Shown here piece after piece: positions 24,899-38,400 of a DNA stretch of 64,000 bases. Position 1 is the stretch's first letter. Each line of letters begins with the position of its first letter. The notes below the pieces were generated by a model, which saw nothing but the letters and a program-made list of their open reading frames with translations, was not told where the DNA came from and made no database searches. Location of the stretch: positions 1-64,000 of the forward strand of contig NZ_JMME01000001.1 in NCBI RefSeq assembly GCF_000686945.1, read 5' to 3'. This stretch comes from Selenomonas sp. AE3005 (lineage in GTDB: Bacteria; Bacillota; Negativicutes; Selenomonadales; Selenomonadaceae). Position numbers and translations under genes: made by a program.

Positions 24899-26905
24899 AT
24901 GGAAATAAAGAAAACAGCTTGTCCGTATGATTGCCCGGACTGCTGCGGCCTGCTGGTCACAGTAGAGAATGGGAAAGCCGTAAAGGTAGCCGGGGACCCG
25001 GAACACCCGTTTACCCGGGGAACGTTATGCCCGAAAATGGCGCATTACGAACGGACGGTACATTCCCCCAGGCGTCTGACCACACCGTTAAAACGTGTGG
25101 GGGCTAAGGGCAGCGGCGAATTTACCCCCATCAGCTGGGAGGAGGCCGTGGCGGCGATTGCTGCTAAATGGCAGGCGATAATCAAGGCGTATGGCGCTGA
25201 GGCTATACTGCCTTATTCCTATGCCGGAACGATGGGAACCTTACAGTACAGTGCCGGACATGCCCTGTTTTTTGCGTTAGGGGCAAGCAGCCTGGACAGG
25301 ACGATTTGTGCACCGGCCAAGGCCCAGGGCTTTCGTGCGGTTATGGGAGCGACGCTGCCCACAGCACCGCAGGAGGCGCAGCATAGTGATTTTATTCTGC
25401 TCTGGAGTATCAGCATGCTGGCCACGGATATTCATTTCAAGCATGATGTGGACATAGCGCGTAAGCGGGGAGCCAGGATTGTCTGCATTGATACGTATGC
25501 CACGCGGACGGCCGCCTATGCCGATGAGTTTATCTGTGTGAAACCGGGGACTGATGGGGCGCTGGCCTTGGGGCTTATGCATATAATGGCGCGTGAGGGA
25601 CTGGTGGACGAGGCGTTTATTGCCGCACATGTTCAGGGCTGGGAAGACCTTAAGGCAGAAATTCTGCCCCGGTATACGCCGGCAGTTGTCAGCCGGATAA
25701 CCGGTGTGGACGGCAAGGTATTAGAAGAACTGGCGCAGAGTTTAGGAAGGGCCAGAGCGCCGTTTTTGCGGCTGGGCAGCGGCCAGTCACGCTATGGCAA
25801 TGGCGCGATGACGTCCCGTCTGATTACCTGCCTGCTGGCTGTGACTGGTGCTTATGCCAGACCGGGCGGCGGTATGCTGACTTCGGCCGCCGGCAGCAAT
25901 GCTTTTGATAAGGATATTATCCGCCGTCCCGATATGGAAAAGCCGGGCGTGCGGCATATCAATATGATTAAGCTGGGTGATGTGCTGACGGATAAGGACT
26001 TGCAGCCACAGGTTAAGAGCCTGTTTGTCTATTCTTCCAATCCGGCCTGCACAGCTCCTGACCAAAATAAGGTACTGGCAGGGCTGGCTCGGGAAGATTT
26101 ATTTACCGTGGTGCATGAACGATTTATGACGGATACGGCGCTGTATGCTGATATCGTGCTGCCGGCAACCACGTCGCTCGAGCATGAGGATATTTATTAT
26201 TCCTATGGGCAGTATGTGATTCAACGGGGGCAGGCGGTAATACCGCCGGTAGGCGAGAGTAAATCCAACTGGCAGGTCATGCAGCTGCTGGCTAAGGCCA
26301 TGGGCTTAACAGATGAATTTTTTGCCAGACAGGAAAAAGATTTTATTGCGGCTTTTATGGACAGCACCAAAACGGCCTGGCCTTTGCCGGTAGACCGGGA
26401 AAGATTGGCTGCCGGAGAGCCGGTGGCTCTGCCGCTGCCGGCTGCTTATAAAATGCAGTTTAAGACGCCTTCCGGCAAAATCGAGATATTAAATCCCCGG
26501 CTGACGCCGCCGCTGCCGGATTATTTCCCGGCACACAGCGAGGGAGACGCAGGGGAGTTTGTACTGATAAACTCCCCTGATGCCCGGATTTTGGACAGCT
26601 CGTTTAATGAACGGGAGGAACTTACCCGCGGCAATATTATGACGCTGCTGTTAAATCCCGTGGACGCACAGCGGCTGGGCTTAAAGACCGGTGACCGGGT
26701 ACGGGGAAAAAATGCCCGGGGGCAGGCGGAGTTTACTTTGCAGGTTACGGATAAAGCAGCCTGCGGTACAGCGGTCAGTGAAGGTGTCTGGTGGCAGGAA
26801 TACACCAGAGGGGGGAACATCAACCGGCTGACTTCGCAGCGGACAACGGATAAAGGGGAAGGCAGTACCTTTTATGATGTGCGCATAGATATAGAACGAA
26901 TTTAA
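24899..26905 (+). CDS. Molybdopterin-dependent oxidoreductase
   Basis: A 668-aa catalytic subunit of the DMSO reductase (bis-molybdopterin guanine dinucleotide) family. An N-terminal [4Fe-4S] site is formed by C8, C12, C15 and C44 (CPYDCPDC then GTLCPK). Downstream are typical cofactor-binding stretches: RLGSGQSRYGNGAMTSR, a VYSSNPACTAPDQ motif, ADIVLPATTSLEHEDIYYS, and a C-terminal dinucleotide-binding domain ending in NINRLTSQ. There is no Tat signal, so it is probably cytoplasmic. No partner iron-sulfur or membrane subunit is adjacent, so the electron partner and substrate are unknown. The RBS is weak (GGAG 14 bases away). Confidence 0.88.
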   Translation: MEIKKTACPYDCPDCCGLLVTVENGKAVKVAGDPEHPFTRGTLCPKMAHYERTVHSPRRLTTPLKRVGAKGSGEFTPISWEEAVAAIAAKWQAIIKAYGAEAILPYSYAGTMGTLQYSAGHALFFALGASSLDRTICAPAKAQGFRAVMGATLPTAPQEAQHSDFILLWSISMLATDIHFKHDVDIARKRGARIVCIDTYATRTAAYADEFICVKPGTDGALALGLMHIMAREGLVDEAFIAAHVQGWEDLKAEILPRYTPAVVSRITGVDGKVLEELAQSLGRARAPFLRLGSGQSRYGNGAMTSRLITCLLAVTGAYARPGGGMLTSAAGSNAFDKDIIRRPDMEKPGVRHINMIKLGDVLTDKDLQPQVKSLFVYSSNPACTAPDQNKVLAGLAREDLFTVVHERFMTDTALYADIVLPATTSLEHEDIYYSYGQYVIQRGQAVIPPVGESKSNWQVMQLLAKAMGLTDEFFARQEKDFIAAFMDSTKTAWPLPVDRERLAAGEPVALPLPAAYKMQFKTPSGKIEILNPRLTPPLPDYFPAHSEGDAGEFVLINSPDARILDSSFNEREELTRGNIMTLLLNPVDAQRLGLKTGDRVRGKNARGQAEFTLQVTDKAACGTAVSEGVWWQEYTRGGNINRLTSQRTTDKGEGSTFYDVRIDIERI

Positions 26906-27004
26906 AAAAGGTTTTTGGGAGTGTTTCACGAATATAAACTTCAGAGATATTTTTTCGCTGTTAGAGGGATTCTATACCGAAAAATAAATGGGGAAGTGCA
27001 AGTT

Positions 27005-28219
27005 ATGACGTATTATTGCCTGATAGATTTTTTGGCATTGATGGTGCTCCTTATAACCAATAATGATATCGTGTTTAGGGATGTGCGCGTGGTACGTAAT
27101 CGTGGACACAGACTTTACAGATTGTTTCTGTTTGCCGTCATTGCGTATTATATATCGGATTTTATCTGGGCCTGGCTGTATAAAATTGGCACATATCCTA
27201 TGGCGCTGTATGTGGACACTGAGGTGTATTTCATCTTTATGGCCCTGGGAACTGTGCTGTGGTCGCGTTTTGTAATCAGATACCTGCGAATAAAGATGGC
27301 TTTTGCCCGTTTTCTGAACATAGCCACAGTACTGCTGTTTATGTTGGTGATAATTGCCACACCTTTAAACCGTATGTGGGATATCATGTTCTGGTTTGAT
27401 ATTGACGGGATATATCATGAAGGCCCGGTCAGAGATTTCATATTTATTTATCAGGTGGTATTGCTGCTGGTGCTTTCCCTGTATACGCTGTTTATAGCGT
27501 CTCATATCAGCAGCAAGCAGAGGAAACGAAATATTGCTGTAGGTATGTCCGGTATTGTTATGCTGGTGTTCACGGTGGTGCAGATATTTTTTCCCTTGTA
27601 TCCGCTCTACGCCATCAGCAATATGATGGGCTGCTGTCTGCTGCGTACCTTTGTTGTTGAGCATGAACGTGACGAATATCGCGAAAACCTGAAAATTACC
27701 CTGGCAAGAGAACGTGAGCAGTTTGAGGAATATAAAAAGGTCTGGAGTCTGGCCTATAAAGATGCACTTACCGGGGTGAAAAATAAACTGGCTTATGCAG
27801 AAAAATGTGCACAGCTTGACAGTCAGATAAACGAGGGTACCCTGCAGGGAATGGCTGTAGCAGTTATGGACCTCAATGACCTGAAAGTCATAAATGACAC
27901 GTTTGGTCATGATGTGGGCGATGAGTATATCAAAAACGCCTGTCATCTGATTTGTGAGATATTCAAGAAGAGCCCGGTATATCGGATAGGCGGCGATGAA
28001 TTTGCGGTCATTCTCGAGGGAGATGACTACGAGCAACGGGAAATGCTGCTTAGCACATTTACTATGGAAATATATAGGAACCTGAAGAATAAAACGGTGG
28101 TTATTGCCATCGGTATGGCAGAATACAATCCCGAACAGGATGATTGTTATAAGCAGGTTTTTGAACGTGCGGACGTGAAGATGTATCAGCATAAGAAAGA
28201 TTTGAAGAAAATCGCATGA
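27005..28219 (+). CDS. Membrane-bound diguanylate cyclase (GGDEF)
   Basis: A 404-aa protein. The first 220 residues hold about six hydrophobic membrane segments. A charged coiled-coil linker (EHERDEYRENLKITLAREREQFEEYKK) leads to a GGDEF domain. The active site is intact (YRIGGDEFAVIL, near residue 328), with DALTGVKNKLAY and DLNDLKVINDTFGHDVGDEY. It should make cyclic di-GMP. The inhibitory RxxD site before GGDEF is absent (KKSP at that place). ATG 27005 follows GGGAAG; the upstream extension lacks a site. Confidence 0.88.
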   Translation: MTYYCLIDFLALMVLLITNNDIVFRDVRVVRNRGHRLYRLFLFAVIAYYISDFIWAWLYKIGTYPMALYVDTEVYFIFMALGTVLWSRFVIRYLRIKMAFARFLNIATVLLFMLVIIATPLNRMWDIMFWFDIDGIYHEGPVRDFIFIYQVVLLLVLSLYTLFIASHISSKQRKRNIAVGMSGIVMLVFTVVQIFFPLYPLYAISNMMGCCLLRTFVVEHERDEYRENLKITLAREREQFEEYKKVWSLAYKDALTGVKNKLAYAEKCAQLDSQINEGTLQGMAVAVMDLNDLKVINDTFGHDVGDEYIKNACHLICEIFKKSPVYRIGGDEFAVILEGDDYEQREMLLSTFTMEIYRNLKNKTVVIAIGMAEYNPEQDDCYKQVFERADVKMYQHKKDLKKIA

Positions 28220-28231
28220 TGGGTGCGAGGA

Positions 28232-28260
28232 AAGCCTCAGGCTTAGGCCGGGGCTTTTTC
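28232..28260 (+). terminator. Terminator after the diguanylate cyclase gene
   Basis: AAAGCC pairs with GGGCTTT across a loop that can fold on itself (AGGCTTAGGCC), followed by TTTTTC. It directly abuts the repeat element at 28261. Confidence 0.7.
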
Positions 28261-28425
28261 TTATAACGAGGCAAGAAAATGTCCCCCACCTCAGCAGGTG
28301 GGGGCACGAATACCAAAACAGGCGGCGAGCATATCTCCCGCCTCGTTGCGAAGCGAAGCTAGTCCTTTAGGGAAACGCCAAGAGGAAGTTTTGCCTATGG
28401 CAAAACTGGAACAACGGCGTTATAA
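28261..28425 (+). mobile_element. MITE-like element, copy 1 (165 bp)
   Basis: A non-coding element bounded by TTATAACG and CGTTATAA inverted ends, with an inner AACGAGGC that can pair with GCCTCGTT at 28340-28347. It contains three hairpins: CCCCCACC/GGTGGGGG, AGGCGGCGAG/CTCCCGCCT and AGTTTTGCC/GGCAAAACT. A second copy at 43831-43971 is identical over about 140 bases but lacks the 24 bases at about 28349-28372. The ends read TA on both sides, so insertion at TA (as IS630/Tc1-type elements do) is possible. It sits between a terminator and the arginine decarboxylase gene; with the flanking bases it fills the 28220-28530 gene-free stretch. Confidence 0.75.
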
Positions 28426-28530
28426 GATTGTGTATTATTTGTGCTTGCTTAATAAGCTGATAAACGGTAAAATTGCAAATAGTGAATATAAATGCACGCC
28501 GTCTTACAGGCGGCTTAATTGGAGGGGAAA

Positions 28531-29997
28531 ATGGACCGAATCAATCAACATACAGCCCCGGTTTACGAGGCGATGCTGGAACTGCGCAAACGGCGGATTG
28601 TTCCTTTTGACGTACCTGGGCATAAGCGCGGCCGCGGCAATCCTGAACTGGTGGATTTCCTCGGGGAGAAATGCGTGGGCGTGGATGTTAATTCCATGAA
28701 AATGCTGGATAACCTCAGTCATCCTGTTTCCGTAATCAGGGAGGCGGAGGAACTGACTGCCGATGCTTTCGGGGCCAAACATGCTTTTTTCATGGTGCAT
28801 GGCACGACGTCGGCGGTGCAGGCCATGGTGCTGGCCTCCGTACGGGCCGGTGAGGAAATTCTGCTGCCGCGCAATGTGCATAAGAGTGTAATTAACGCCC
28901 TGGTACTGTGCGGCGGTATTCCCGTCTATGTGCCGGTCAGGGTTAATCATAAAATCGGTATTGCCACGGGTATGGCGCTAGCTGATGTGCAGCGTGCTAT
29001 CCTTGAACATCCCAAGGCCAAGGCTATTTTTGTCAACAATCCCACTTACTACGGCATTGCCTCGGACCTGCGGGGGATTGTAAAACTGGCCCATGCAGCT
29101 GGTATGAAGGTTCTCGTGGATGAGGCTCATGGTACGCATTTGTATTTTGGCGACAACCTGCCGATTTCGGGTATGGCAGCCGGGGCTGACCTGGCTGCGG
29201 TGTCCATGCATAAATCCGGCGGCAGTCTGACGCAGAGTTCCATTATGCTCTGCGGTCAGGGTGTGGACGTGGAATATGTGCAGCAGATTATAAATCTGAC
29301 ACAGACCACGAGTGCGTCGTATCTTTTGATTTCCAGTCTTGACTTGTCACGCCGTAATCTGGCCCTGCATGGCCGGGAGTCTTTTGAAAAGGTCAGCTCG
29401 ATGGCAGAATATGCCCGGGCGGAAATCAATGAGATTGGCGGCTACTATGCCTATGGCCGGGAACTTATTGACGGGGACAGCGTCTTTGACTTTGACGTGA
29501 CCAAGCTGTCTGTTTTTACACAGGGAATTGGCATGACGGGCATAGAAGTTTACGATATGCTGCGTGATGAGTATGATATTCAGATTGAGTTCGGTGATAT
29601 CGGCAATATTCTGGCCTATATTTCCATCGGTGACCGTATACGCGATATCGAGCGGCTCGTGGGCGCGCTCGAAGATATTGCCGACCGTGCCGGCAAGGAT
29701 AAGAAGGAACTTTACTGCGGTGAGTTCATTGCGCCGGAACTCGTGATGAGTCCCCGTGAGGCTTTTTATGCGCAGGGCGAGCGTATGCCGCTCAGTGAAA
29801 CAGTGGGACGCATTGCCGGGGAAATGCTCATGTGTTATCCGCCGGGCATTCCCATTTTGACACCGGGGGAGCGCATTACGCAGGAGATTCTTGACTATAT
29901 CGAATACGCCCGGGAAAAGGGCTGTTCGCTGCAGGGCACGCAGGACCTGGAATGCCGGGAAATACGCATTTTGACCGGTCAAAAGGGGGCTGAATAA
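28531..29997 (+). CDS. speA: Arginine decarboxylase (Orn/Lys/Arg decarboxylase family)
   Basis: A 488-aa PLP enzyme of the aspartate aminotransferase-fold decarboxylases (Bacillus SpeA type). Marks: PFDVPGHKRGRG near residue 23, HGTTSAVQAMVLA, VDEAHGTHLYFG, and the PLP Lys in SMHKSGGSLTQSS near 226. The C-terminal PPGIPILTPGE is typical. The arginine substrate is inferred because agmatine deiminase and N-carbamoylputrescine amidase lie in the same operon; lysine or ornithine use cannot be excluded from sequence. ATG 28531 is preceded by GGAGGGG. The next start overlaps its stop by one base. Confidence 0.88.
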   Translation: MDRINQHTAPVYEAMLELRKRRIVPFDVPGHKRGRGNPELVDFLGEKCVGVDVNSMKMLDNLSHPVSVIREAEELTADAFGAKHAFFMVHGTTSAVQAMVLASVRAGEEILLPRNVHKSVINALVLCGGIPVYVPVRVNHKIGIATGMALADVQRAILEHPKAKAIFVNNPTYYGIASDLRGIVKLAHAAGMKVLVDEAHGTHLYFGDNLPISGMAAGADLAAVSMHKSGGSLTQSSIMLCGQGVDVEYVQQIINLTQTTSASYLLISSLDLSRRNLALHGRESFEKVSSMAEYARAEINEIGGYYAYGRELIDGDSVFDFDVTKLSVFTQGIGMTGIEVYDMLRDEYDIQIEFGDIGNILAYISIGDRIRDIERLVGALEDIADRAGKDKKELYCGEFIAPELVMSPREAFYAQGERMPLSETVGRIAGEMLMCYPPGIPILTPGERITQEILDYIEYAREKGCSLQGTQDLECREIRILTGQKGAE

Positions 29998-30854
29998 TGG
30001 AAATATGGTTTTCCCAAATGGATACGGAAAATGTCAAAACTTCTGTGCGTGTGGATAAACAGCTTTTTTCCAAGCAGAGTGAATACCAGCGCATTGATGT
30101 CTTTGAATCCCGGGAATTTGGCAGAATGATTGTGCTCGATGGCGAAATCATCTTTTCGGAGGCTGATGAATTCATCTATAACGAAATGGTGGTTCATGTG
30201 CCGATGGCTGTTCATCCGCAGGTAAAAAATGTGCTGATTATCGGCGGTGGTGATGGTGGTGTGGCCAAAGTCCTCACGCAGTACCCCGAGATTGAGTCCA
30301 TTGATGTGGTAGAGCCTGATGAAATGTTCATCGAGGTTTCCCGGGAATTTTTCCCCGAAACCGCCAAGGGGTTTGATGATGAACGCGTGAAGATTACCAA
30401 CATGGACGGCCTGCGTTTTTTGCGGCGCTGCCGGGATAAGTACGACCTTATCATCAATGATTCGACTGATCCGTTTGGCCATACAGAAGGCCTGTTTACG
30501 CGTGAGTTCTATGGCAATTGTTACCGCGCCCTGCATGATGACGGTATTATGGTCTACCAGCATGGCAGTCCGTTCTATGATGAGGACGAGGCGGCTTTCC
30601 GGGCCATGCACCGCAAGGCCTACCAGAGTTTCCCCGTGAGCCGTGTGTATCATGCCGGGATTCCGACTTGTCCGGCCGGTCTTTGGATGTTTGGCTTTGC
30701 GTCCAAGAAATATCATCCGTTAAAGGATTTTGACGCCCAGCGTTGGAATGAGCGGGGGCTCAAAACCTGGTATTATACGACACATTTACATAAGGGTGCT
30801 TTTATGCTGCCCAAATATGTTGAAGATATTCTGTCAGAGGAGGAAAAGAAATGA
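29997..30854 (+). CDS. speE: Spermidine synthase-like aminopropyltransferase (SpeE)
   Basis: A 285-aa class I methyltransferase-fold protein of the spermidine synthase family. Present are LDGEIIFSEADEFIYNEM, the nucleotide-binding GGGDGG (about 82-87), NMDGLRFLRR and DSTDPFGHTEGLFTREFY. The family normally transfers an aminopropyl group from decarboxylated SAM to putrescine. No SAM decarboxylase gene is in this operon or window. Some positions differ from classical SpeE (DSTDPFGHTE where most have a DSTDPxGPAE form; QHGSPFYDEDE). Substrate choice is therefore open. It is coupled to the next gene by ATGA. Confidence 0.85.
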   Translation: MEIWFSQMDTENVKTSVRVDKQLFSKQSEYQRIDVFESREFGRMIVLDGEIIFSEADEFIYNEMVVHVPMAVHPQVKNVLIIGGGDGGVAKVLTQYPEIESIDVVEPDEMFIEVSREFFPETAKGFDDERVKITNMDGLRFLRRCRDKYDLIINDSTDPFGHTEGLFTREFYGNCYRALHDDGIMVYQHGSPFYDEDEAAFRAMHRKAYQSFPVSRVYHAGIPTCPAGLWMFGFASKKYHPLKDFDAQRWNERGLKTWYYTTHLHKGAFMLPKYVEDILSEEEKK

Positions 30855-32110
30855 GCAAATTGATGATTATCGGCTGCGGCGGCGTGGCCAGTGTAGCAAT
30901 CCATAAGGTATGCCAGAATGATGAGGTGTTTGACGAACTCATGATTGCCAGCCGCACGGTGAGCAAGTGTGAGGCTTTAAAAGAAAAATTACAGGGACAG
31001 ACCAAGACGAAAATCACCACGGCGCAGATTGACGCTGATGATGTAGAGGCTTTGACCAAGCTGATTAAAGAATATCAGCCGGATGCCGTACTCAATGTTG
31101 CGCTGCCTTATCAGGATTTGACCATTATGGACGCCTGCCTGGCTGCTGGCGTAGATTATATCGATACGGCCAACTACGAGCCGGAAGATACGGAAGACCC
31201 GGAATGGCGCAAAATCTATGAAAAGCGCTGTAAGGAACTGGGTTTCTCCGCTTACTTTGATTACTCCTGGCAGTGGGCTTATGAGGATAAGTTCAAGAAT
31301 GCCGGCCTGACGGCGCTGCTGGGCACGGGCTTTGACCCGGGCGTAACCTCCGTGTTTGCTGCTTATGCCAAGAAACATTACTTTGACACCATTGACACCA
31401 TTGATATCCTCGACTGCAATGGCGGTGACCACGGCTATCCGTTTGCTACGAACTTCAACCCTGAAATCAACCTGCGTGAGGTTTCCGCACCCGGCTCCTA
31501 TATGGAAAATGGCAAGTGGATTGAGATTCCGGCCATGAGCATTAAGCGCGAGTATGACTTCGAGGGCGTGGGCAAGAAGGATATGTATCTCCTGCATCAT
31601 GAGGAAATCGAGGCTCTCGGCCGCAATATGCCGGAAGTCAAGCGTATCCGTTTCTTCATGACCTTTGGCCAGAGCTATCTCGACCACATGCGCTGTTTGG
31701 AAAATGTGGGCATGCTCTCCACGACGCCGATTAACTACAACGGTCAGGAAATCGTGCCGATTCAGTTCCTCAAAGCGCTGCTGCCGGACCCGGCCTCTTT
31801 GGGCCCGCGGACGAAGGGTAAGACGAATATCGGCTGTATCTTCACGGGCAAGAAGGACGGCAAGGAACGTTCCATCTACATTTACAATGTCTGCGACCAT
31901 CAGGAGTGCTATAAGGAAGTAGGCTCGCAGGCTATTTCTTATACGACGGGCGTACCGGCCATGATTGGTGCCATGCTCGTGGCTACGGGCCAGTGGAAGA
32001 AACCCGGCGTATTTACCACGGACGAGTTCGACCCGGACCCGTACATGGAGGCCCTCAACAAATGGGGCCTGCCCTGGAAGGTCGAGGAAAATCCGGTACT
32101 GGTGGACTAA
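30851..32110 (+). CDS. Carboxynorspermidine/carboxyspermidine dehydrogenase
   Basis: A 419-aa protein of the saccharopine dehydrogenase-like family. The N-terminal Rossmann motif is GCGGVASVAIHKV (8-20), followed by ASRTVSKCEAL, NVALPYQDLTIMDACLAAGVDYIDTANYE, and GTGFDPGVTSVFAAYA. The family reductively condenses aspartate semialdehyde with putrescine or diaminopropane, giving carboxy(nor)spermidine. The decarboxylase that acts on this product is encoded 3 bases downstream, which strongly supports the call. The polyamine acceptor (putrescine or agmatine) cannot be fixed from sequence. Confidence 0.9.
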   Translation: MSKLMIIGCGGVASVAIHKVCQNDEVFDELMIASRTVSKCEALKEKLQGQTKTKITTAQIDADDVEALTKLIKEYQPDAVLNVALPYQDLTIMDACLAAGVDYIDTANYEPEDTEDPEWRKIYEKRCKELGFSAYFDYSWQWAYEDKFKNAGLTALLGTGFDPGVTSVFAAYAKKHYFDTIDTIDILDCNGGDHGYPFATNFNPEINLREVSAPGSYMENGKWIEIPAMSIKREYDFEGVGKKDMYLLHHEEIEALGRNMPEVKRIRFFMTFGQSYLDHMRCLENVGMLSTTPINYNGQEIVPIQFLKALLPDPASLGPRTKGKTNIGCIFTGKKDGKERSIYIYNVCDHQECYKEVGSQAISYTTGVPAMIGAMLVATGQWKKPGVFTTDEFDPDPYMEALNKWGLPWKVEENPVLVD

Positions 32111-32113
32111 GGC

Positions 32114-33289
32114 ATGACCAGGAAAATCGATAAAGTGCCAACGCCTGCTTATGTGGTGGACGAACAGGCCTTAGAGAATAACCTGCGGATTTTGCAGCAG
32201 GTCAAAGAGGCGGCCGGCTGTAAAATCCTGCTGGCGCAGAAATGCTTTTCGATGTTTGCCGAGTATCCTTTGATTGGCAAGTATCTTGACGGCGCTACGG
32301 CCAGCGGCCTTTATGAGGCGCGCCTGGGCCATGAGGAAATGGCGGGGGAGAACCATGTGTTTTCCCCGGCTTACCGCCCGGAGGAAATTGAAGAAATTGC
32401 CGCTATCTGCGACCATGTGATTTTTAATTCCTTTTCCCAGCTGCGCCGCTTTGGTGCCAAGGTGCGGGAAATTCAGCAGGCGCGCGGCATTGAGCATGGT
32501 ATCGGCCTGCGTATCAATCCAGAATGCTCGACACAGGACCATGCTATTTATGACCCCTGTGCGCCCGGCTCGCGGCTTGGTGTTACGGCGGAGGATTTTG
32601 CCCGGGCGGTGGAAACCGCGCCACAGCTCTGGGAACTGCTGGACGGCCTGCACTTCCATACCCTTTGTGAGCAGAACAGCGACGCGCTGGCGGCAACTTT
32701 GCAGGCCGTAGGGCAGAAGTTTGGCTGCTGGCTGGCAAAGGATTCTATCCATTGGCTGAATATGGGCGGCGGCCATCATATCACAAGGGCCGATTATGAC
32801 CGTCAGCTGCTGATTGACCTGATTAAGGGCGTCAAGGATAAGTATGACGTGGCCGTCTATCTGGAACCGGGCGAGGCCGTGGCTCTTAATGCAGGCTATC
32901 TCATTACCGAGGTACTGGACACGGTGACAAATCATGGTGTGGATATTCTGCTGCTTGACGCGTCAGCCGCCTGTCATATGCCTGATGTGCTGGAAATGCC
33001 CTACCGGCCGCCGCTTAAGGATTCCGGCGAGGCCGGGGAGAAAGCCCATACTTACCGGCTTTCGTCCTGTACCTGCCTGGCCGGGGATATCATTGGCGAT
33101 TATTCTTTTGACAGGCCAGTTAAGCCGGGGGACAGACTCTATTTTGAGGATATGGCCATCTATTCCATGGTCAAGAATAATACCTTCAACGGCATGGCCC
33201 TGCCCTCTATCTGGAAGATGGACGCCAGCGGTGAATGCACGCTGGTCAGGAAGTTTGGCTATAAAGATTTTAAGGAACGATTGTCATGA
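32114..33289 (+). CDS. nspC: Carboxynorspermidine/carboxyspermidine decarboxylase (NspC)
   Basis: A 391-aa PLP decarboxylase of the alanine racemase-fold group. The PLP Lys lies in LLAQKCFSMF near residue 38. Further motifs are RINPECSTQDHAIYDPCAPGSRLG, GLHFHTLCEQ, LNMGGGHHITRADYD, YLEPGEAVALNAGYL and SCTCLAGDIIGDYSF. It removes the carboxyl of carboxyspermidine to give spermidine. It follows the dehydrogenase by 3 bases and overlaps the agmatine deiminase gene by 4 (ATGA). TGACGCGTCA at 32956. Confidence 0.92.
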   Translation: MTRKIDKVPTPAYVVDEQALENNLRILQQVKEAAGCKILLAQKCFSMFAEYPLIGKYLDGATASGLYEARLGHEEMAGENHVFSPAYRPEEIEEIAAICDHVIFNSFSQLRRFGAKVREIQQARGIEHGIGLRINPECSTQDHAIYDPCAPGSRLGVTAEDFARAVETAPQLWELLDGLHFHTLCEQNSDALAATLQAVGQKFGCWLAKDSIHWLNMGGGHHITRADYDRQLLIDLIKGVKDKYDVAVYLEPGEAVALNAGYLITEVLDTVTNHGVDILLLDASAACHMPDVLEMPYRPPLKDSGEAGEKAHTYRLSSCTCLAGDIIGDYSFDRPVKPGDRLYFEDMAIYSMVKNNTFNGMALPSIWKMDASGECTLVRKFGYKDFKERLS

Positions 33290-34395
33290 TGATTACAGGC
33301 AGCACACCTAAAGCAGATGGTTTTTATATGCCGGCGGAGTTTGCGCCGCATGCCGGGACATTTTTGATATGGCCTGTACGGCCCGGTTCCTGGACAAATA
33401 ATGGTGCCGATGTGCAGCCGGTTTTTGTGGAGCTTATTCGCGAGATTGCGGCGGTGGAGGAACTTTACTTGCTCGTAGGTTCGCAGCACCGCGCTCAGGC
33501 TGAGGCTATGCTGAAAGACCTACCGCAGGAACATATCCACTATCTGGATATTCCCACGGACGACGCCTGGGCCAGAGATATGGGGCCTACCTATGTCGTG
33601 GACGGCCAGGGGCGCCGCCGGGGCATTAACTGGCGATTCAATGCCTGGGGCGGTGAGGTTGACGGGCTTTATCCCAACTACGCGCAGGACGATGCGGCGG
33701 CAGAGAAGATGTGCGCGGCCCTGCATGATGATATCTATGACGCCGGTGATTTTGTGCTCGAAGGCGGCTCAATTCATGTGGACGGCGAGGGAACCGTGGT
33801 CGTGACGGAAACGTGCCTGCTCTCGCAGGGGCGCAATCCTAATTTGTCCAAGGTGCAGATTGAAGAAAAACTGTGCTATTATCTGGGCGCCCAAAAAGTA
33901 ATCTGGCTGCCCCGGGGCATTTATAACGATGAAACCAATGAGCATGTGGATAATGTCTTTGCCTTTGTCCGTCCCGGTGAAGTTCTGCTGGCGTGGACGG
34001 ACGATGAGTCTGACCCGCAGTATGCGCTGAGCAGGGGGGATTTAGAGGTATTGGAACAGGCTGTGGACGCTAAAGGGCGCCCGTTTAAGATTCATAAACT
34101 GCCCATTCCGCAAAAGCCTGTCAGCATCACCGAGGAAGAAGCAAACAGCTTTACCTTCGAGGAAGGTGAGGACAGGCGTGAACCCGGGGAACGACTGGCG
34201 GCCAGCTATGTGAACTTTTATCTCTGCAATGGCAAGGTTATTGTGCCGCAGTTCGGTGATGAAATGGACGCCGAGGCGCGGCGTATCTTAGGGGAGTGTT
34301 TCCCGGAACGCCAGGTCGTGCCCCTGCCGGCCCGGGCGGTTATTGTCGGCGGCGGCAATTTCCACTGCCTGACACAGCAGATACCAAGTCTTTAG
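33286..34395 (+). CDS. aguA: Agmatine deiminase (AguA)
   Basis: A 369-aa guanidine-group modifying enzyme that converts agmatine to N-carbamoylputrescine and ammonia. The catalytic Cys is C361 in GGGNFHCLTQQIP at the C-terminus. Also visible are MPAEFAPHAGTFLIWP, DDAWARDMGPTYVV, FVLEGGSIHVDGEGT and DETNEHVDNVFAFV with the active-site His. The length is normal. The product feeds the amidase encoded next. Confidence 0.96.
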   Translation: MMITGSTPKADGFYMPAEFAPHAGTFLIWPVRPGSWTNNGADVQPVFVELIREIAAVEELYLLVGSQHRAQAEAMLKDLPQEHIHYLDIPTDDAWARDMGPTYVVDGQGRRRGINWRFNAWGGEVDGLYPNYAQDDAAAEKMCAALHDDIYDAGDFVLEGGSIHVDGEGTVVVTETCLLSQGRNPNLSKVQIEEKLCYYLGAQKVIWLPRGIYNDETNEHVDNVFAFVRPGEVLLAWTDDESDPQYALSRGDLEVLEQAVDAKGRPFKIHKLPIPQKPVSITEEEANSFTFEEGEDRREPGERLAASYVNFYLCNGKVIVPQFGDEMDAEARRILGECFPERQVVPLPARAVIVGGGNFHCLTQQIPSL

Positions 34396-34419
34396 GGGCA
34401 CAGAAAACGAGGTGACAAA

Positions 34420-35295
34420 ATGCGCAATGTAACTGTAGCCGCCGTTCAAATGCAGATGTCGGCAAGTGTGCGTGAGAATATCGACAAGGCTGATAAATTG
34501 GTGCGCGAGGCGGCCGGACGTGGGGCACAGATTATCCTGCTGCCGGAACTCTTTGAACGGCCGTATTTCTGTCAGGAACGGCAGTATGATTTCTATGATT
34601 ATGCCACGGCGGTGGCGGATAATCCGGCGGTTCGCCATTTCCAGCCTATCGCCAAAGAACTGGCCGTGGCTATGCCCATCAGTTTTTATGAGAAGGACGG
34701 CACGCGCCTTTTTAACAGCATTGCCATGCTGGACGCTGACGGCAGCGTTTTGGGCGTATACCGCAAGACACATATTCCCGATGACCATTACTATCAGGAA
34801 AAATTCTACTTCACACCGGGCAATACCGGTTTTAAGGTCTGGGATACACGCTATGGCAAGGTAGGCGTAGGTATTTGCTGGGACCAGTGGTTCCCCGAGG
34901 CGGCCCGGGCGATGGCCCTGCAGGGGGCAGAAATTCTGCTCTATCCCACGGCTATCGGCTCGGAGCCCATACTGGAAACGGACAGCATGCCGCATTGGCG
35001 GCGTTGTATGCAGGGGCATGCCGGCTCCAACCTGCTGCCGGTGGTGGCGGCTAACCGCATTGGTGTAGAAACGGTGGAACCGTGCGCGGAAAACGGCGGC
35101 CAGCAGTCAAGCCTGAACTTTTACGGCTCGTCCTTTATCACGGATAATACCGGCGCAATCATCACCGAGGCCGGCCGTACAGAGGAAGTGGTGCTGACGG
35201 CCAGCTTTGACCTTGATGGTTATGCCAAAGACCGTATGAGCTGGGGGCTGTTCCGTGACCGCCGCCCGGAAATGTACAACGAAATAGTAAGGTGA
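34420..35295 (+). CDS. aguB: N-carbamoylputrescine amidase (AguB)
   Basis: A 291-aa nitrilase-superfamily hydrolase that splits N-carbamoylputrescine into putrescine, CO2 and ammonia. The catalytic triad is visible: Glu in LLPELFERPYFC, Lys in YRKTHIPDDHYY and Cys in GVGICWDQWFPEAARAMAL. It is preceded by GAGGTGAC and lies 24 bases after aguA. It is the last gene of the polyamine operon, with a terminator directly after it. Confidence 0.96.
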   Translation: MRNVTVAAVQMQMSASVRENIDKADKLVREAAGRGAQIILLPELFERPYFCQERQYDFYDYATAVADNPAVRHFQPIAKELAVAMPISFYEKDGTRLFNSIAMLDADGSVLGVYRKTHIPDDHYYQEKFYFTPGNTGFKVWDTRYGKVGVGICWDQWFPEAARAMALQGAEILLYPTAIGSEPILETDSMPHWRRCMQGHAGSNLLPVVAANRIGVETVEPCAENGGQQSSLNFYGSSFITDNTGAIITEAGRTEEVVLTASFDLDGYAKDRMSWGLFRDRRPEMYNEIVR

Positions 35296-35301
35296 AAAGA
35301 C

Positions 35302-35350
35302 AACAGGGCTGAGGTACGTTTACGGACGTGCGGCAGCCCTGTTATGTTTT
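35302..35350 (+). terminator. Terminator of the polyamine operon
   Basis: AACAGGGCTG (35302-35311) pairs with CAGCCCTGTT (about 35334-35343) around a loop with its own small stem (TACGTTTACGGACGTG), followed by ATGTTTTG. The tail overlaps the -35 box of the smc promoter. Confidence 0.85.
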
Positions 35351-35377
35351 GAGAAAAGAGGGCAAATATGGTATAGT
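35349..35377 (+). promoter_or_regulatory. Promoter of smc-ftsY
   Basis: TTGAGA (35349-35354), 17 bases, TATAGT (35372-35377) with a TG one base upstream (extended -10), about 43 bases before the GTG start of smc. Confidence 0.7.
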
Positions 35378-35419
35378 AGATAGTATGTGTGCAGGGAAAT
35401 GACGAATGAGGTGTAGAGG

Positions 35420-38400
35420 GTGCAGTTAAAACGGTTGGAGGCTTATGGCTTTAAGTCATTTGCTGACAAGATAACAATAGATTTTGACCAGGGGATAACG
35501 GCTATTGTCGGGCCTAACGGCAGCGGCAAGAGCAATATCACAGACGCCATTCGCTGGGTATTAGGTGAACAGAATGTCCGCAATTTGCGTGGGACGAAGG
35601 CCGAGGATATTATCTTCACCGGTTCGGCCTCCCGTAAAGCTCTGGGCGTGGCCGAAGTTACGCTGGTGTTTGCCAATGACGGCACCCTGCCGGTGGATTT
35701 CCGCGAGGTTATGGTGACGCGCCGGTTGTACCGCAGCGGCGAGAGTGAGTTTTATATCAATCGTTCGCGGTGCCGGCTGAAAGATATTTACAATCTCTTT
35801 GCCGACACGGGTATTGGGCATGATGGCATGAGTATTATCGGGCAGAACCGCATTGATGATATTCTGAACAGCCGCCCGGAAGAGCGCCGGGCGTTCTTTG
35901 AGGAAACGGCCGGTATCACCAAGTACCGCAACCGCAAACGCGAGTCCGTGCGGAAACTCACCGATACGGAGAACAACCTTGTCCGCGTGCAGGATATTAT
36001 CCATGAAATCGAAAACCAGCTGGAACCCCTGGCGCGGCATGCGGAAAAAACCAGAATTTATAACGGGCTCCACGAGGAGTACCAGCGTTATAAGCTGACG
36101 AAACTGGCGCAGGATTACGCACGGGAGGCCGGACAAAAGCAGGCTAATGACGGGAAACTCACCCAGCTGCAGGACGAGGTCATTGCGGCTGAGGCGAAAG
36201 TCCAGTCTTTGGCTGCAGAAAAAGAACGCCTCAATAAAGAGATAATCGACCTGGAAAATGCCATGCAGGCACAGGCCGAAAAAAATGAGTTCCTGCGGCA
36301 GAAGATGGCGGTAGCCGACCAGGAGGCGGCCAAGCTGCAGGAACGTCAGGACCAGAGTGACGGTATCAGGGACCGCATTCTGGAACGCCGGCAGGAACTT
36401 AATCACGAAATCGCTGAGGCTATAGCGGAGATGACGCGGCTGGCCGAACAGGAAAAGCAGCAAAAGCAGGACCTGGCCTTGCTCGATGAATTTCTGACCA
36501 AGGAACAGGCCAAGCAGAAGGACTATAGTCAGCGTATTCGGACGCTGGAAGAACAGAGCCAGGCTGTCAATAAGGAAAAAGAGGCCCAATTTGCCGTCTG
36601 GACGGCTAAGCAGCAGGAACTGGCACTGGCTGAGCGCGACCTGGAAAATGGCGCTGATGGGCAGGAGGGCCGGGAAAGCGAATTGCAGCAGGCCAGGGAA
36701 AAACTGCAGCATTGGCAAAAACTGCAGGCCGAACTGCAGGAATCACTCGAGGCTGAGGCCGACAATGCCCGTAAGTGCCAGGAGCAGCTGCAGGCGGCCC
36801 AGCAGGCCAGAAAGGCAGCGGAAAACGAGCTGCGGTCTGCTCGCGACAAGGCCAGTGACCTTGCCAGCCGGCTGAAGAACACGGAAAACAAGCTGCAATT
36901 CTTAACCCGTATGCAACAGGCTTATGAAGGCTTTGGCAAGGCGGTAAAAGCCGTGCTGAAAAGCCAGGAAAAATGGCGCAGCGGCGTGGCCGGGGCGGTG
37001 GCAGAACTCATTGATGTGCCCCGTGATTATGTGACGGCTATCGAAATTGCCCTGGGCGGCAATATGCAGAATATCGTCACGGCCGATACGGACACGGCTA
37101 AGGCGGCCATTGCCTTCCTTAAACGGGAAAAGCAGGGGCGTGTTACCTTCCTGCCGTTGTCCACATTGGTGGTCCGCCAGCCACAGAATCTTAATTCCCG
37201 TCTGCCGGGGATTATCGGCTGGGCTAATACGCTTGTGAAAACCGAAACGCGGTATCAAAAGGCCGTAGATTTCCTGTTATCGCGTACGCTGGTGGTGGAT
37301 AACCTCGACAATGCCCTGGCTCTGGCCAAGGAACAGGGCTACCGCCTGCGGATTGTCACCCTTTCCGGGGAATTACTTAATCCCGGCGGTTCCCTTTCCG
37401 GTGGCAGCCGGGGGCACCAGGAGGCCAGCTATCTCAACCGTAGCGGGGAAATCGCTGATTTGCAGGCCCAGCAGGTGACACTGCAGCAACAGCTGGCGGC
37501 CAGCGGGCAGGAATGTCAGGCCAGGCAGGCAGCGGTGCAGACAGCCGAGGAAGATTTGCTGTCGGCCCGGGAAAACTTGCAGCAGGCGGATATCCATCAG
37601 GCCGAGTTAAAGACAAGTCTGGCCCGTCTGGGTGAAAATCTGACAAGTCAGGAAAAGCTCGTAACTGATTTGGAAACGGCGATGGCTGCACTGCAGGCCT
37701 CGTTTGCCAAACTGCAGGAAAAGAAGGTTATGGCCAAACGGGCGGCGGCTGAGGCGGAAAAGAAATACGAGGAACTCAGCAAGGCGGCCGAGGAGGCACA
37801 GCTGAACCTGGAGGATTTAGAACAGGACGCCGATGATTTAGCGGCCTATATCCATGACCGGGAAGTCAAACGGGCAACGCTCGAGCAGGAGGCTTTAAAC
37901 AGCCGTCAATTCCTGCTGCTGCGTACCAAAGCCAAGGAAAACAGTGAACAGAGCCTGCGGGAAAACGAGCGTGAGGAGCAGGAACTGGAAAAAAGCCTCG
38001 TGGACAGTACGCAGCGCCTGCAGGAACTGGCTGACCAGCAGAAAGGCCTGCAGGAAGTTTATGACGCCGGTCAGGAGGCTCATACGGCCATCTACAATGA
38101 GCGTATGGACAAGCTGACGGCCAATCAGCAAAACGATAAAGAGGCTCACAACGCCGCACAGGCCCTCAACCGCCTGCAGGCTGAGGTGCAAAAGCTGGCG
38201 GTGCTGGACAATAAACTGCAAATGCATATTGAGAGCCTGCAGGAGGATATCCTGTCAGAATACGGCCTGACGCCGGAACGGGCGGCAGAGGAGGCCATGG
38301 ACGCCGAGCCGGGGGATATCAAGACGAATATGCAGCGTCTGGAGCACAAGCTGAAGGAATTGGGACCGGTCAATCCCAACGCGCTGGAAGAATATGAAGA

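Follow-up and report, generated by a model that had tools for sequence, protein, structure and literature searches.

The closest described systems combine two routes to spermidine in one genome. Carboxyspermidine dehydrogenase (CASDH) and its partner decarboxylase (CASDC, NspC) make spermidine from putrescine or, with agmatine available, via carboxyaminopropylagmatine (PMC11999265), and genomes that hold both this route and an aminopropyltransferase route plus S-adenosylmethionine (SAM) decarboxylase (AdoMetDC, SpeD) have been described as carrying a hybrid pathway, dependent on aspartate semialdehyde and on decarboxylated SAM (dcSAM) (Li et al. 2025, PMC11999265). Both PMC7531197 and PMC7990898 state that Streptococcus pneumoniae has speE and that its annotation lists no SAM decarboxylase. 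We analyzed a 64,000-nucleotide stretch of Selenomonas sp. AE3005 (contig NZ_JMME01000001.1, positions 1 to 64,000; the window), whose polyamine operon places a SpeE homologue beside the CASDH/NspC pair. It resembles the hybrid pathway in joining CASDH/CASDC, or the carboxyaminopropylagmatine enzymes CAPADH/CAPADC, to a SpeE homologue in one genome, several of the published cases also having an arginine decarboxylase (ADC), and it differs in that AdoMetDC supplies dcSAM there (PMC11999265), whereas in the window's genome no serine-bearing SpeD was found and SpeE has changed donor and acceptor sites. The full hybrid set of working AdoMetDC, aminopropyltransferase and CASDH/CASDC was thus not found in this genome. 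The likeness to S. pneumoniae (SP_0916 and other polyamine genes) lies in the gene set, namely ADC, SpeE, CASDH and NspC, and in the lack of an annotated SAM decarboxylase, for which excerpts of the two papers give no explanation (PMC7531197, PMC7990898).

Sequence comparison places the window's SpeE, with high probability, in a subfamily under purifying selection that occurs in genomes with nspC and without a recognizable working SpeD, and in which the donor-amine contact (residue 62) and the acceptor site have changed, the latter at 190 and, in operons like the window's, at 7, 225, 162, 187 and 154 as well. Because the active-site changes accompany the absence of SpeD, a reaction other than the ordinary one appears likely: SpeE is conserved here but is probably not an ordinary dcSAM enzyme. 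A first-pass annotation of the window had raised the possibility that this SpeE makes a different product, an idea that the sequence evidence supports in part.

The operon and its SpeD homologue

Six plus-strand open reading frames (ORFs), abutting or almost so, occupy positions 28531-35295 in the order speA-speE-CASDH-nspC-aguA-aguB. They were named by family scans, and both ORFs and scans bore out the gene identities and coordinates that the first-pass annotation had given:

28531..29997, + strand: speA-like arginine decarboxylase of the Orn/Lys/Arg decarboxylase major-domain family (PF01276, 214 bits; PF03711, 51 bits; same place in related operons)
29997..30854, + strand: speE-like aminopropyltransferase homologue, assigned to the remodeled subfamily (Gln7, Asn62, Asp86, Asp155, Asp158, Gly190, Cys225)
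30851..32110, + strand: CASDH/CAPADH homologue (carboxyspermidine or carboxyaminopropylagmatine dehydrogenase; PF16653, PF03435)
32114..33289, + strand: nspC, carboxy(nor)spermidine decarboxylase (TIGR01047, 451.5 bits, cut-off 409)
33286..34395, + strand: aguA, agmatine deiminase (TIGR03380, 482 bits, cut-off 382; NF010070 also above cut-off)
34420..35295, + strand: aguB, N-carbamoylputrescine amidase (TIGR03381, 454 bits, cut-off 410)

The pneumococcal ADC, SpeE, CASDH and NspC genes likewise form one operon in this order. The described coupling of speE between speA and the dehydrogenase gene was found as stated: the speA stop codon ends on the base with which speE begins, and the speE and CASDH ORFs share 4 bases; speA has an alternative TTG start at 28519. 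The nspC product scored above its cut-off and adjoins a saccharopine-dehydrogenase-type gene, as the CASDH/NspC route requires, while the CASDH-like protein reached 421.5 of the 800 bits of NF043000 (the carboxynorspermidine synthase equivalog), making it a homologue outside that equivalog. SpeE passes both spermidine synthase models (NF002010, 356 bits, cut-off 260; TIGR00417, 285.8 bits, cut-off 249.55), so that an annotator would call it spermidine synthase and read it as a sign of the dcSAM route.

None of the six genes encodes a SAM decarboxylase, again as first described. In the window's own genome (G000; 2.82 Mb, 99.96% complete), PF02675 gave a single match, on another contig (G000:C10:16360-16680; L001:1414-1944), between ispE-like and thrS-like ORFs identified by eye. 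This homologue scored 83-84 bits against a cut-off of 25, and 76.3 against 75.65 with the B. subtilis-type SpeD model TIGR03330, and it carries Gly where T. maritima SpeD has the pyruvoyl-forming serine (the 1tmi chain in the alignment shows Ala). As the only homologue found lacks the catalytic serine, an ordinary speD elsewhere in the genome was ruled out, and the earlier suggestion that speD might lie elsewhere held in name only. A search with PF01536, run without a positive control, gave no match in the same genome.

The same state recurred across the genus, with one PF02675 match each, and Gly at the pyruvoyl serine, in 22/22 Selenomonas genomes. Elsewhere in the class, most of the genomes searched carry an additional match of ~265-296 amino acids, with the serine kept in all nine that were read; where Negativicutes outside this set had one match only, the site was Gly in 11 and Ala in 1 of the 12 genomes read. 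The serine-less homologue may be a retained pseudoenzyme with a different role. In some Negativicutes (e.g., G023, G028, G029, G033 and G040), a Gly-type copy stands beside a Ser-bearing E. coli-type SpeD. No hidden SAM decarboxylase was recognized, by eye only, among ORFs lying between speE and CASDH at five loci (L104, L105, L107, L055, L058). Three of these loci hold additional ORFs inside the operon, with zinc-ribbon-like ends (L104, L105) or metallophosphoesterase-like (L107), also read by eye.

Recurrence of a remodeled SpeE without SpeD

The window's SpeE is 98% identical to SpeE at three S. ruminantium loci, which places this rumen bacterium in the S. ruminantium group. Outside Selenomonas, its nearest relatives come from Lachnospiraceae and further Clostridia, where they occupy the same operon. 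CASDH directly follows speE in 78 of 80 related loci and the remaining two stop at speE, several loci being interrupted further along by contig ends. We searched the genomes of 50 of these loci with PF02675, comprising 9 Selenomonas (overlapping with the 22 above) and 41 others; completeness was not given for these genomes, many of which are metagenome-assembled, and within that limit a single match only was present in 9/9 Selenomonas and no match in 38/41 non-Selenomonas genomes. Of the three exceptions with a match, two (G086 and G089) also encode another SpeE, of roughly 500 amino acids, ~2.3 kb from SpeD. Hence, the premise that a conserved SpeE stands beside the carboxyspermidine route without a recognizable dcSAM source is supported well beyond the window's genome.

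Several Negativicutes and Clostridia have a related arrangement, speA-speE-speB-CASDH-nspC, without speD (speB being a ureohydrolase gene by eye), and other genomes have speD-speA-speE-speB-CASDH-nspC clusters (G413, G162, G192). Within one genus (g3), G023 holds an ordinary SpeE clustered with an E. coli-type speD, and G247 holds the window-type operon with only a serine-less homologue. Genome G326 (loci L358 and L359) is a natural control that contains both kinds of SpeE, a remodeled speA-speE-speB-CASDH-nspC cluster without speD and, ~95 kb off, an ordinary adjacent speD-speE pair. We suggest that the remodeled SpeE probably arose in a hybrid cluster of the order speD-speA-speE-speB-CASDH-nspC, from which speD was then lost.

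The active site was compared with plant spermidine synthase (SPDS), where Gln107, Asp131 of GGGDGG and Asp201, the first Asp of DxxD, bind the amine of dcSAM and Ile152 stacks with the adenine. The acceptor there lies between Tyr106 and Tyr270, its far end bound by Asp204 and, via waters, by Glu50 and Glu236 (PMC6514230). By alignment, the donor-side equivalents in the window's SpeE are Asn62, Asp86, Asp155 and Pro107 (for Ile152 of AtSPDS1), and those on the acceptor side are Asp158, Gln7, Gly190, Tyr61 and Cys225. The Asp residues are retained, and the differences fall on the remaining contact to the donor amine, the two Glu that act via water and one of the Tyr. Asp86, Glu106, Asp155 and Asp158 are present in 80/80 related loci, which suggests that binding of the adenosyl sulfonium and activation of the amine are both intact; Val89 is likewise invariant (80/80). 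Position 62 is Asn in 75 and Asp in 5 of the 80 loci, compared with His (4) or Gln (1) in five SpeE sequences from the Protein Data Bank, and the His or Gln contact to the dcSAM amine is accordingly absent from the window's SpeE. The B. subtilis (1iy9) and T. maritima (1inl) enzymes share family, GGGDGG and DxxD with the window's SpeE, which has the ribose Glu of T. maritima (Asp in B. subtilis), but they carry His62, Asp/Glu190 and Tyr225 where it has Asn, Gly and Cys.

The DSTDPFGHTE site had been flagged as unusual, and it is so at His162/Thr163, both DxxD Asp residues being unchanged; of the 80 loci, 59 have His and 21 have Tyr at position 162, where 85/88 ordinary SpeE compared have Pro. 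The window's operon type differs further from ordinary SpeE at 54, 111, 154, 162, 187, 198, 208 and 225. An AlphaFold model of SpeE (mean pLDDT 64.7, residues 42-66 and 223-227 below 50) was too poor to judge the donor pocket and was left unused.

Upon surveying 165 SpeE from 160 genomes (110 from a ranked Clostridia list and 55 Negativicutes picked by hand, out of 172 genomes with a match), we found residues 62 and 190 to track SpeD status closely. Lower-ranked and roughly 500-amino-acid fused Clostridia SpeE were omitted. SpeD was scored as present in Clostridia on a PF02675 match (the serine was inspected in 8 of 97 such genomes and was Ser in 8/8) and in Negativicutes on two PF02675 matches (E. 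coli-type serine in 9/9 read), and G215, with one match, was classed as SpeD-bearing on score alone. Asp or Asn at 62 together with Gly190 occurred in 39/41 SpeE from genomes without any or without a working SpeD, and His62 with Glu190 in 120/124 from SpeD-bearing genomes (the remainder being Asn with Glu in 2, Ser with Glu in 1 and Asp with Gly in 1). The lone Asp-Gly case is that of G326, whose ordinary SpeE directly adjoins speD. Collapsing sequences at least 90% identical left 22/24 and 102/106, respectively. In the column ranking that serves as evidence, with groups defined by SpeD status alone, 62, 190, 50, 107 and 204 were the five best-separating of 285 columns, and column 229 joined them once the set was restricted to SpeE with 45% or more identity to that of the window. 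Residues 62 and 190 jointly, with 50, 107, 204 and 229, thus provide a small set that separates the two kinds of SpeE.

In the same survey, nspC was present in 40/40 genomes with a remodeled SpeE versus 67/120 with other SpeE only, partial or split nspC matches being scored as present (e.g., G363 at a contig end and G065 across two frames). The remodeled SpeE is spread over several families. It is under strong purifying selection: against L039, the window's SpeE showed a nonsynonymous divergence (dN) of 0.021 at a synonymous divergence (dS) of 1.04, and in 6/6 comparisons, most of them saturated at synonymous sites, none of the other four genes had a dN as low as that of SpeE or CASDH. Conservation across loci and the dN values ruled out a decaying relic. 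Overall, the recurrence of this SpeE without SpeD in other gut bacteria suggests an unrecognized job.

Candidate reactions of the remodeled SpeE

The best single mechanism, to which we give a probability of roughly 0.35, is the one proposed in the first-pass annotation, in which SAM is the donor and NspC removes the carboxyl group from the product. SpeE would transfer the 3-amino-3-carboxypropyl group of intact SAM to a polyamine, and NspC would then strip the carboxyl, such that decarboxylation following transfer would stand in for SpeD. As CASDH already yields the first product, SpeE would be more useful on spermidine or on N1-aminopropylagmatine made by CASDH/NspC, which would be the most likely acceptors, with putrescine or agmatine as the other candidates. 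CASDH/NspC would stay the main spermidine route and SpeE would add a further product, e.g., spermine via carboxyspermine. The idea fits the presence of nspC in every genome with the remodeled SpeE, and plant putrescine N-methyltransferase is a precedent for an SPDS derivative that switched from dcSAM to SAM (PMC3725402).

Several observations weigh against this SAM-donor mechanism or against the residue association behind it. Repulsion of the SAM carboxyl is ascribed, as an assumption, to the GGGDGG Asp (PMC3725402), and its equivalent Asp86 is kept in all 80 loci, while residue 62 is Asp or Asn and has gained no positive charge. CASDH accompanies this SpeE (78/80 loci) and would make the same first product, which would render a SAM route to carboxyspermidine redundant. 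In rich medium, deletion of pneumococcal speE altered no measured metabolite, as reported in PMC7531197, and no biochemistry of this SpeE subfamily was found in excerpts of the open-licence literature searched. On the side of the association, G071 has a SpeD with Ser intact and no second SpeE above the cut-off, two ordinary-type SpeE in SpeD-bearing genomes carry Asn62 with Glu190, and two genomes without SpeD have His62/Glu190, namely G334, without nspC, and G401 (L360), with nspC and with Asn for Asp158, possibly a dying enzyme. E. coli SpeE, an ordinary enzyme, likewise has Gly at 190, so that this position by itself is not diagnostic. In a short tree search (119 rows, signature columns removed), the remodeled SpeE formed two clades with ordinary sequences between; a tree uniting them scored better, and a single origin was not rejected (approximately unbiased test, p 0.717). 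The residue change may thus have arisen once, in which case the 39/41 are not 39 independent events, and independent pairs were too few to test the association, which may therefore rest on one event. In view of the better single-origin tree and the AU p of 0.717, many independent residue switches are not claimed.

SpeE could instead have been recruited to another SAM-dependent polyamine reaction, such as N-methyl transfer, with a product that never meets NspC. The plant putrescine N-methyltransferase (PMT) is an SPDS derivative that methylates putrescine with SAM and has its residue-62 equivalent altered (Q79T), among other residues (PMC3725402), and acceptor-site residues are altered in the window's SpeE too. 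PMT has Ile for the GGGDGG Asp, in its first step, and transfers a methyl group (PMC3725402), however, whereas the Asp is kept in 80/80 loci here; nor is the PMT change V106T seen (Val89 in 80/80), and the constant presence of nspC would be accounted for by the shared operon only. We regard such a recruitment as rather unlikely. A role other than transfer, with SpeE as a structural or regulatory partner of CASDH/NspC and perhaps a sensor of SAM, methylthioadenosine (MTA) or polyamines, would fit its retention in the operon, the low dN that it shares with CASDH and the lack of an obvious donor without SpeD; yet the catalytic Asp pair and the cofactor motif, whose loss one would expect once an enzyme had retired, are kept in 80/80 loci, G401 being perhaps the one such case, and we find this role improbable.

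Two further explanations keep dcSAM as the donor. If SpeE were the dcSAM-dependent spermidine or spermine synthase of an ordinary hybrid pathway (Li et al. 2025), speD would have to be unrecognized or unassembled. The aminopropyltransferase of Sporomusa ovata, a diderm member of Bacillota with CASDH/CASDC, yields spermidine in E. coli (PMC11999265), and related clusters that include speD exist, as in the three genomes named above; but the window's genome is nearly complete, the absence of a working SpeD repeats in 22/22 genomes of the genus and extends as a missing PF02675 match to 38/41 others, the PF01536 search (for which there was no positive control) returned nothing, and H62/E190 tracks the presence of SpeD as D/N62-G190 tracks its absence, which leaves this explanation quite improbable. 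Very improbable, in our view, is a supply of dcSAM from another enzyme, the nearest candidate being NspC, whose substrate has the same 3-amino-3-carboxypropyl head group. The retention of Asp86, Asp155, Asp158 and Glu106 and the presence of nspC in all 40 genomes would agree with it, and decarboxylases of the family tolerate several tails (PMC11999265), but an unchanged donor leaves the altered donor-amine contact of the SpeD-less group unexplained, the adenosyl group of SAM is bulky, and no such activity was found in excerpts of the open-licence literature searched.

The SAM-donor mechanism thus keeps the support of nspC while facing the retained Asp86, the non-basic residue 62 and the presence of CASDH. 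Rather doubtfully, we extend it to the whole remodeled clade of gut Bacillota, where SAM carboxyaminopropyl transfer followed by NspC could constitute a third way to aminopropyl polyamines, beside the dcSAM and aspartate-semialdehyde routes, and may explain the pneumococcal speE without speD. If this subfamily has another donor or product, the SpeE step would be wrong in metabolic models built for bacteria of the rumen and gut (Selenomonas, Butyrivibrio, Agathobacter, Pseudobutyrivibrio), and the published pneumococcal puzzle would become directly testable with one purified protein. In the open-licence PMC literature searched, as excerpted, neither this SpeE subfamily nor a bacterial SpeE that uses SAM was described; published work on neofunctionalized decarboxylases deals with SpeD homologues that lack a SpeE, and the reverse case was not met in its excerpts (PMC10407285).

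Surroundings of the operon

An Rfam scan of positions 26500-36000 gave no match. By eye, inverted repeats rich in GC lie at 28230-28310, between an upstream GGDEF-like ORF and speA, and a run of T follows one of them. Downstream of aguB, an smc-like ORF, also identified by eye, starts at 35420.

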